In this document: one piece after another, positions 6,610 through 8,697 of the stretch
Numbering within the stretch: position 1 is the first letter of the stretch
Layout: each line of letters starts with the position of its first letter
Source: an uncultured Alphaproteobacteria bacterium
GTDB lineage: Bacteria > Pseudomonadota > Alphaproteobacteria > VGEJ01
Direction: 5' to 3'
Length of the DNA: 38,514 bases
Assembly: GCA_913041535.1 (NCBI GenBank)
Contig: CAJWJK010000017.1
Coordinates: forward strand, 1-38,514
Position numbers and translations under genes: made by a program
Notes under the pieces: generated by a model
What the model was told of the DNA's origin: nothing
What the model saw: the letters and a program-made list of their open reading frames with translations, nothing else
The model's database searches: none

Positions 6610-7869
6610 CTAATCTTCGTTGAAAGCTTCGAGGGCTGCACGAAAACAGCTCAATGGAGTGCGAACGAAACCAGCGCCGATTTGGCCAACCCCAGGTTCC
6701 TTATGGGCAATACCGGTATTGAATAGCGGTGTTAATTCTTGGGCGACGACTTTAAGCACGTCAATGCCAGTGGGTGTTCCCCTGTAATTAAGCTGTGGAA
6801 TTTTAAAGCGGGTATGCTCTGTTAAGGTAATGTCATACATTTCGACCGCTAATCGAGTCGCCTCCTCTGGTGTTCCTCCTACGTAAGCAGCTAAGGCCGG
6901 GGCAGCTGCCATTGCGAAGGCACCAAGACCCATGGTTTCCGAGATTTCACTGTCACCGATTACTGGATTGGCATCAGACAGGTCATAACCTTCGAAATAC
7001 TTACCTGTCACACTGGGTACAGGTGTTGTGAACCACTTATCTGGAAAGCTGCTGATCTTTATGCCAAATTGAATACCATTGGCAGCCATGCATGTAACTA
7101 CAGTAGAGTTGGCCACACCAGTGGCCGCAGCCATCGTTGATTTTGCAACACCAATTGTCAGTGGTAGGAAGAAGATATCGTTTGCTGCCATAAATGATAA
7201 CACTCGTTCAGAAGAATCTTTTGAACTTGCTGATGCGGTTATGTGTGGGGCGAGGGCGTTGAGAATTAATGATGATGCCGCCTTTTGGCGACTATGGCCG
7301 TCGTCACCCATGTGGAGGGCTTGAGAAAGAATATCTCCTAAATTAATACCACCTGAACGGCGGATTGCCAGCCCAAGCACATCAGCTAGTTCGCCTTCTA
7401 TCCATGCCAAACGCTTAAGAGTCTCAGAGTCGTTCGCTCCATAACGTAATGCCTTGCCGCGCCCTTCGTTAATAGCGGCAAATGCTCGAATGTTGGCTGC
7501 ACGGTTCTCAGTGACAAGGACAGGCGTTGTTCGGGAGATGACGCCAGCGTAGGTTCCGCCTCCACCACTATCATTCGCCGACCGCAATGTAATCTTGCCA
7601 GAAGTCATCAGTTTTTCCGCATCAGCAAGACTTTCTGCCCAGCCGAGATGCAGTATTGATCCAAGTATAGAGCCTCGAAGAGCCCCTACCGTACGAGCTT
7701 CGTTCCATCCTCGTAGGGGAGGACCCGCATGAAGAAGCTCGTAAGTACCAAGATCGCTAACTATCTCTCCGGCCGGGATGATATCAACCAGATAGGGATC
7801 AGCCTCAGCAATGTGAGACAATACCTCCGCATTAGCTGAATTGATGGTATCGGTGGATGGAAATGGCAT
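6610..7869 (-). CDS. DUF1116 (YlbE/AllG-like) protein
   Basis: A 419-aa cytosolic protein of the DUF1116 family. Recognisable blocks are HAGPPLRGWNEARTVGALRG near residue 50, the glycine-rich GGGGTYAGVISRTTPVLV (about 103-120), LRRSGGINLGDILSQALHMGDDGHSR-type sequence in the middle, and the C-terminal GTPTGIDVLKVV. E. coli YlbE (AllG) is a subunit of the oxamate carbamoyltransferase formed with FdrA (AllF) and YlbF (AllH), at the end of anaerobic allantoin breakdown. Neither partner is visible here, so a different role or distant partners are possible. It follows the GYD gene by nine bases on the same strand, so the two are very likely one transcript. Confidence 0.85.
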   Translation of the reverse strand: MPFPSTDTINSANAEVLSHIAEADPYLVDIIPAGEIVSDLGTYELLHAGPPLRGWNEARTVGALRGSILGSILHLGWAESLADAEKLMTSGKITLRSANDSGGGGTYAGVISRTTPVLVTENRAANIRAFAAINEGRGKALRYGANDSETLKRLAWIEGELADVLGLAIRRSGGINLGDILSQALHMGDDGHSRQKAASSLILNALAPHITASASSKDSSERVLSFMAANDIFFLPLTIGVAKSTMAAATGVANSTVVTCMAANGIQFGIKISSFPDKWFTTPVPSVTGKYFEGYDLSDANPVIGDSEISETMGLGAFAMAAAPALAAYVGGTPEEATRLAVEMYDITLTEHTRFKIPQLNYRGTPTGIDVLKVVAQELTPLFNTGIAHKEPGVGQIGAGFVRTPLSCFRAALEAFNED

Positions 7870-7878
7870 TCCAAAACC

Positions 7879-8202
7879 TTATCCAGCCGGCGGTTTGTAA
7901 GCGATGGAATTGGCTTTTCTCATTGCTTTCATTGCATCGGCCATACTGTGTAGTCCCGTGATTTTCGTGCTCCCGGCACCTGATGCACCGATCATCAGCG
8001 CAACGGACATAGCATCAACATCGTTCTTAAGGTCTGCAATCACGACTCCGTCCCATTCGCCAAAAGTAAAGTAGTAATCTACAAGTTTACCGCCCAGCTG
8101 CTTAACAACAGCATTTGCCTGGGTTTTTCGATTCTGTGGTTTGGCTACCAGGCCCTGAACGCTTTTTGTGCTAAAACTGATTTGTATCATGTAACGTCGC
8201 AT
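7879..8202 (-). CDS. GYD domain protein
   Basis: A 107-aa protein of the GYD family (PF08734-like), a small alpha/beta fold related to dimeric alpha-beta barrels. Hallmarks are the opening RYMIQISFSTKSVQGLV, the AVVKQLGGKLVDYYFTFGEWDGVVIADL core, where the family carries its G-[YF]-D-x-V motif, and the KITGLHSMADAMKAM end. The ATG at 8202 has a good ribosome site on the minus strand (AGAAGGTGA about 6 bases upstream). It is the first gene of a two-gene unit with the DUF1116 protein. The family has no settled biochemical function. Confidence 0.87.
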   Translation of the reverse strand: MRRYMIQISFSTKSVQGLVAKPQNRKTQANAVVKQLGGKLVDYYFTFGEWDGVVIADLKNDVDAMSVALMIGASGAGSTKITGLHSMADAMKAMRKANSIAYKPPAG

Positions 8203-8272
8203 AACAGATCACCTTCTGGAAAATTGGGTATTTACATAGACGAACAATTTAGTCGATTTTGGGCCAATATGG

Positions 8273-8278
8273 TATGAT
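8273..8278 (+). promoter_or_regulatory. Candidate -10 element for the SnoaL-like gene
   Basis: TATGAT matches the -10 consensus at five of six positions and lies 48 bases before the ATG at 8326. The -35 position 17 bases upstream matches poorly. The gap is divergent, so this would serve only the plus-strand gene. Confidence 0.3.
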
Positions 8279-8325
8279 AAAGATGTATTGGTTATTGTGG
8301 CCGTTAACCCATAAGGGAAAACCAA

Positions 8326-8697
8326 ATGACCCCAAAAGAGATTGTCTTGAGTGGATACGAGTCTTTTTCGCGTGGCGACATGGAAAGTCTGGGAAGCATT
8401 TACCATGAGGATTGTGTGATTCGAGTAAACGGTGATCATGAGTTATCGCGGGAATATCAAGGATTTGATGACTGGCTTGCGAACTTCTTGTCACAAATTC
8501 CTATACGATTTCCAAATTTCAATCTGGAGATTCTGGGAGTTACTGCTGAGGATGACAGAGTTTACGTTCGTGTTCGCTACACGGCAGATAATCTGGATTC
8601 ACAATCAGTTCACATGTTTGTTGTAAAAGATGGATTGCAGACAGAGTTTGATATTTTTGATGACTCTCAAAAGATAGCCAGCGCCCTCCGCAGCTAG
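8326..8697 (+). CDS. SnoaL-like / NTF2-fold protein
   Basis: A 123-aa protein with a clear SnoaL-like pattern: TPKEIVLSGYESFSRGDMESLGSIYHEDCVIRVNG at the start, FDDWLANFLSQIPIRFPNFNLEIL in the middle, and VYVRVRYTAD then HMFVVKDGLQTEFDIFDD at the end. The superfamily includes polyketide cyclases, limonene-epoxide hydrolase-like enzymes and ligand-binding proteins; no specific substrate is suggested. The ATG at 8326 has AAGGGA about 9 bases upstream. It is divergent from the GYD/DUF1116 pair and unrelated in sequence to the other NTF2-like protein at 2107 beyond the fold. Confidence 0.83.
   Translation: MTPKEIVLSGYESFSRGDMESLGSIYHEDCVIRVNGDHELSREYQGFDDWLANFLSQIPIRFPNFNLEILGVTAEDDRVYVRVRYTADNLDSQSVHMFVVKDGLQTEFDIFDDSQKIASALRS

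Follow-up and report, generated by a model that had tools for sequence, protein, structure and literature searches.

A DUF1116/AllG-family gene in lineages without neighbouring FdrA, from an uncultured alphaproteobacterium

The window analysed here, a stretch of 38,514 nucleotides from an uncultured alphaproteobacterium, carries a DUF1116/AllG-family gene that belongs to recurrent lineages of the family lacking FdrA nearby. The reading that we favour, with modest confidence, is that this gene (6610–7869) encodes an intact DUF1116 enzyme working without FdrA, AllH and carbamate kinase in amide or ureide catabolism, the adjacent GYD-domain gene being a neighbour.

The E. coli AllFGH enzyme finishes allantoin breakdown. 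According to the report on it, all three genes, allF, allG and allH, are needed for oxamic transcarbamylase activity; AllG was given its function in 2024, only as one of the three subunits, and is predicted to be a homodimer (PMC11326118).

Results

The 419-residue product of 6610–7869 (minus strand) matches the AllG family PF06545 over the whole profile (positions 1-215 of 215; E 1.8e-71, 240.6 bits for a cut-off of 27) and, in a tblastn comparison, shares 40% identity with E. coli AllG. Its AlphaFold2 model, built from 39 sequences, has a mean pLDDT of 90.7 and superimposes on PDB 3clq over 412 residues (Z 59.0, rmsd 1.5, 39% identity), the 3clq sequence itself being a match to the window protein over its whole length (phmmer E 1.5e-91). 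No fold relative beyond 3clq had a meaningful score among the matches listed.

The gene before it on the minus strand (7879–8202) encodes a GYD-domain protein of 107 residues, which belongs to PF08734 with an E of 3.5e-18 and 65.8 bits, above the curated cut-off of 31.4. That the DUF1116 gene lies nine bases after a GYD gene, as had been read from the sequence alone, is thus confirmed by the reading-frame coordinates and the Pfam matches. Direct reading of the sequence shows AGAAGG before the GYD start and AAGG before the AllG start, both resembling ribosome-binding sites, the latter motif spanning the GYD stop at the edge of the minus-strand gap (7870–7878) that leads from this stop to the AllG start. 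Because of the nine-base gap, the common strand and the plausible ribosome-binding motif before each start, a two-gene unit headed by the GYD gene is likely, and the GYD gene is probably co-transcribed with AllG in the source lineage. The unit diverges from a SnoaL-like gene (8326-8697, plus strand), and the intergenic region between them (8203–8325, by reading-frame coordinates) is where its promoter would be placed, if the unit is real. This region contains no sigma-70-like match, and the counts of sigma-70-like and terminator-like sites are no higher than in shuffled sequence.

With profiles built during this work, AllF was found near AllG at 84 of 115 loci. Among the 31 others, L129 and L139 have the contig end at AllG, L048 and L067 carry a segment resembling the FdrA C-terminus in the AllG frame and were counted as FdrA-linked, and L055 and L217 are FdrA-free but fragments; after exclusions, 25 FdrA-free proteins were placed in a tree of 65 AllG sequences together with 40 that have AllF, AllH or AllK nearby (L067 among the latter). 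The label "no AllF, AllH or AllK nearby" changes 3 times on this tree, as compared with a mean of 20.2 when labels are shuffled and with none of 500 shuffles being as low; the tree was built by a fast procedure and contains long branches that meet, and no more than 2 changes are required by its starred branches. The FdrA-free AllG genes would, on such sequence grounds, form coherent lineages rather than strays, and the function of these lineages is probably not oxamate carbamoyl transfer. The sequence-only reading had proposed a different pathway defined by the GYD-DUF1116 pair: its first half holds, as the orphan gene falls in FdrA-free lineages and a different system is likely, while the tie to GYD is unsupported.

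The window protein belongs to a clade of four FdrA-free proteins with a support of 100, which is joined weakly (82-84) to L215 and to a group hereafter called clade B (83 for the L215 join). The small size of this clade, four members only, counts against the favoured reading. Its further members were hunted in 385 genomes of the class, 398 of the phylum, 3 of the order of G254, 369 of the class of G607 and a collection of genome contigs, and only L060/L094, L061/L096 and L095 were recovered; the scan of genome contigs can miss relatives, as two short peptide patterns served as its query. No clade member was found by the scan of viral contigs, nor any AllG in G001, the sole other sampled genome of the source family. 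Relatives of DUF1116 are present in 193 plasmid records, all below 60% identity and 140 of them predicted to be conjugative; they include NZ_CP062120.1 and many Enterobacterales plasmids.

At 26 of the 115 loci (L064, L066, L072 and L202, for example), AllG is preceded in frame by a segment of some 45 residues that resembles the FdrA C-terminus. It is found in none of the FdrA-free clades, and is also missing from many linked AllG proteins, that of E. coli included. Such in-frame segments or fusions would fit a physical partnership of FdrA and AllG in the linked group. A single open frame made of a whole FdrA followed by AllG was seen at L145 and L146.

The two groups can also be separated by individual residues. 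At least 97% identity across 84 linked sequences, 51 of which stem from a single pattern scan with many close relatives, defines 71 columns (E. coli numbering is used throughout). Five of these columns are lost outright in the window clade (E69, M101, V144, R258 and D298) and nine partly. R258 and D298 are present in all 84 linked sequences and both missing in 24 of the 25 FdrA-free ones, the window protein having Ala and Val at these positions. As no more than 2 to 3 independent contrasts underlie the correlation (p 0.5 by sign test), it is a lead and not proof. Counterparts of H44, E129, R136, D184, H187, R189, K238, N259, D301, S302, E306, N380, T381 and H385 are kept in the window protein, which thus retains the majority of the conserved polar positions, and these residues may be catalytic, judging from conservation only. 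One exception was seen among the FdrA-free genes: L051:9478-10686 retains R258 as well as D298, although its genome gave no strong FdrA match, and adjoins an open frame that looks, by its sequence, like a FAD-dependent oxidoreductase.

The neighbourhoods of the FdrA-free loci differ from one lineage to another. In clade B (L040-L047 and L079), AllG has a gene of the glutamine-synthetase family no more than 1.3 kb away at eight of the nine loci, on the same strand in three of these eight (L041:10768-12279, L042:10402-11766, L043:10387-11811, L045:2316-3806, L047:7469-8923 and three more loci); two of the proteins matched PF00120 by scan and the rest were called by similarity to one of those. 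Weaker glutamine-synthetase matches lie 4.8-6.0 kb away at three other FdrA-free loci (L052, L054 and L055), and none of the 84 FdrA-linked loci has such a gene near AllG. The pairing of glutamine synthetase with DUF1116, on which the literature search returned nothing, looks more promising than that of GYD with DUF1116. Elsewhere, FdrA-free genes have as neighbours Rieske oxygenases, amidases, PhyH dioxygenases, an AtzH-like protein, a molybdopterin dehydrogenase, amidohydrolases and an asparaginase; as they were picked by eye, these families are examples and not rates. At L215, the neighbours include a Rieske oxygenase, an amidase and a DUF2237 gene. At L217:6557-9063, genes for an amidase, an AtzH-like protein and a divergent DUF1116 protein follow one another on a single strand, which hints at the catabolism of carboxybiuret-like compounds or ureides.

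Within the window clade, AllG of L095 comes after genes for a BMP-type ABC transporter, a cupin regulator and a class III aminotransferase. Both this gene order and the Pfam families concerned would suit a narrower form of the favoured reading, in which the substrate is a ureido acid and L095 displays how a single compound is taken up, decarbamoylated and transaminated. We regard this narrower form as unlikely, since the order is known from one locus of the clade only, whose contig breaks off some 300 bases past AllG, and was absent from the window and from L060 and L061; the neighbours of the last two, as judged by eye, are housekeeping-like, none of them pointing to a pathway, which also counts against the favoured reading itself.

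The GYD gene was then considered as a partner of AllG. A profile search found GYD near AllG at 1 of 123 AllG loci, this one being the window itself; the 123 include two same-contig duplicate pairs and seven loci with flanks of at most 1.5 kb, the remaining flanks being at most some 10 kb long and in part clipped by contig ends, and the profile, built from 36 loci, recovered 36 of 36, i.e., its own building set. GYD is absent at the three nearest AllG relatives, L060, L061 and L095 (65, 65 and 61% identity, respectively). Across the class, AllG is present in 36 of 385 genomes and GYD in 69, and the two are adjacent in the source genome only, the next closest pair being about 9.2 kb apart in G138 (tables compared by eye). 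The adjacency is real but, on this evidence, private to the lineage. GYD is thus probably a lineage-specific neighbour rather than a conserved component of the DUF1116 system, and the adjacency looks incidental.

These counts bear directly on the proposal, put forward in the sequence-only reading, that GYD is an accessory subunit or partner and that the two proteins make up a distinct complex for carbamoyl transfer or amide processing. The proposal draws on the layout described above, with its short gap, shared strand, plausible ribosome-binding sites and likely co-transcription, but the want of recurrence in related genomes, an outcome that the sequence-only reading had itself named as refuting, tells against it and we find it improbable. 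The source genome has a second GYD gene (C1:44692-44970, which is L090:7693-7971, with the family match at C1:44734-44955), located after a GcvT-like folate-binding gene (PF01571), a context that differs from that of the first. GYD relatives occur in 86 plasmid records. A literature search by domain name returned no title on the biochemical function of the GYD domain.

Whether AllG has partners away from the window was addressed in the whole source genome (2,088,478 bases, 2.09 Mb, in 39 contigs, with a listed completeness of 100), in which it is present as one copy. Profiles built for this work detected no AllF/FdrA, AllH or AllK in the window. Genome-wide, there was no PF11392 (AllH/DUF2877) match at E 0.001, the E. 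coli control being detected, and no FdrA at E 1e-8; a weak FdrA match (C5:58833-59378; 23% identity, E 1.9e-6), covering residues 109-290 only of E. coli FdrA, is taken as a succinyl-CoA-synthetase-type protein. Carbamate kinase was undetected with a single query, the E. coli AllK protein (best E 0.106). The missing partners, noticed at first over 38 kb, are therefore missing from the genome as a whole, as far as FdrA, AllH and carbamate kinase could be detected.

FdrA was searched in 29 genomes, namely 27 with FdrA-free or divergent AllG (the divergent ones being those of G377, G317 and G135) and two FdrA-linked comparisons, G045 and G128; some of the assemblies are incomplete (G254 has a listed completeness of 63). 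Strong matches were obtained in both comparisons and in G299, G377, G080, G217 and G157, each of these five also having an FdrA-linked AllG copy. Seven of the other 22 genomes have weak, partial matches (23-27% identity) and 15, the source genome among them, have none at E 1e-8. The presence of FdrA beside another DUF1116 copy, which the sequence-only reading had named as speaking against it, is hence not seen in the source genome; it is seen in a relative, G157, which has an FdrA-free AllG (L061) and an FdrA-linked one (L062).

It might be argued that the window gene encodes a standard subunit of oxamic transcarbamylase and that fragmentation of the assembly has hidden its FdrA and AllH partners, given the 39 contigs and the level of identity with the E. 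coli subunit. Yet the listed completeness is full, R258 and D298 are lost, and AllG stands partnerless 6.6 kb inside its contig in a family where AllF is near AllG at most loci; moreover, the partners are likewise missing near AllG at three related loci, among them the clipped L095. This explanation is therefore held to be quite improbable.

Between L060 and L061, the closest pair, dN is 0.141 and dS 0.925, giving a dN/dS of about 0.15 and indicating purifying selection; synonymous sites are saturated in the pairs that include the window. GC3 is 0.414 for AllG and 0.463 for GYD, as compared with 0.387-0.455 for twelve other genes measured, and base composition gives no sign of a foreign origin. 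A decaying remnant of an allFGH cluster, as the absent partners and the patchy distribution (none in G001) might suggest, is very improbable in view of a full-length, stop-free frame with its conserved core kept, the constraint between the two closest relatives and a GC3 like that of the neighbours.

Discussion

On balance, an intact enzyme that works without FdrA is the best explanation of the window gene. Such an enzyme would use a small amide or ureido substrate in the catabolism of nitrogen compounds, either as a homodimer or with a further partner, and its reaction would not hand carbamoyl phosphate on to carbamate kinase. As neither FdrA nor carbamate kinase was found in the source genome, a pathway by way of carbamoyl phosphate becomes less likely there. 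FdrA may, as we infer from its resemblance to acyl-CoA synthetases, be the carbamoyl-phosphate binder of the E. coli complex.

A wider view, which we put forward tentatively, as a possibility somewhat short of even, is that DUF1116 is a general amide or ureide module, with oxamic transcarbamylase as one of its versions, that several old lineages have swapped or shed FdrA, and that R258 and D298 mark dependence on it. Lineages of this module could work beside a glutamine-synthetase-like enzyme, or beside Rieske oxygenases and amidases, and the window clade could work alone or, in the source species, with GYD.

The recurrent FdrA-free DUF1116 lineages, rather than the GYD pairing, are the part worth following, and they appear to be a branch overlooked so far. 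No account of FdrA-free DUF1116 was found in the accessible text of the literature on DUF1116 and AllFGH, a search that had subscription papers outside its scope. If many DUF1116 genes are FdrA-free, the Pfam description "Oxamate carbamoyltransferase subunit AllG" misleads for those, and the family holds further enzymes of nitrogen catabolism. The FdrA-free forms also offer a way to ask what AllG itself does within the three-part enzyme, and R258 and D298 are two residues open to testing.

When compared with known systems, the window protein is like the E. coli AllG (YlbE) of AllFGH in belonging to the same Pfam family, in aligning over nearly its full length at about 40% identity and in sharing a conserved core, and neither AllG frame has the FdrA C-terminal-like segment. 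It is unlike the E. coli system in that its genome has no detected AllF, AllH or AllK, and in the replacement of R258 and D298 by Ala and Val, a distinction drawn from the present alignment and not from published work. As regards the GYD family PF08734, the window member is over the Pfam cut-off and has a DUF1116 neighbour only here among the 123 loci. Finally, the window protein resembles PDB 3clq, a DUF1116 protein of Enterococcus faecalis, in its match over the whole length and in its predicted fold, which is that of the family.
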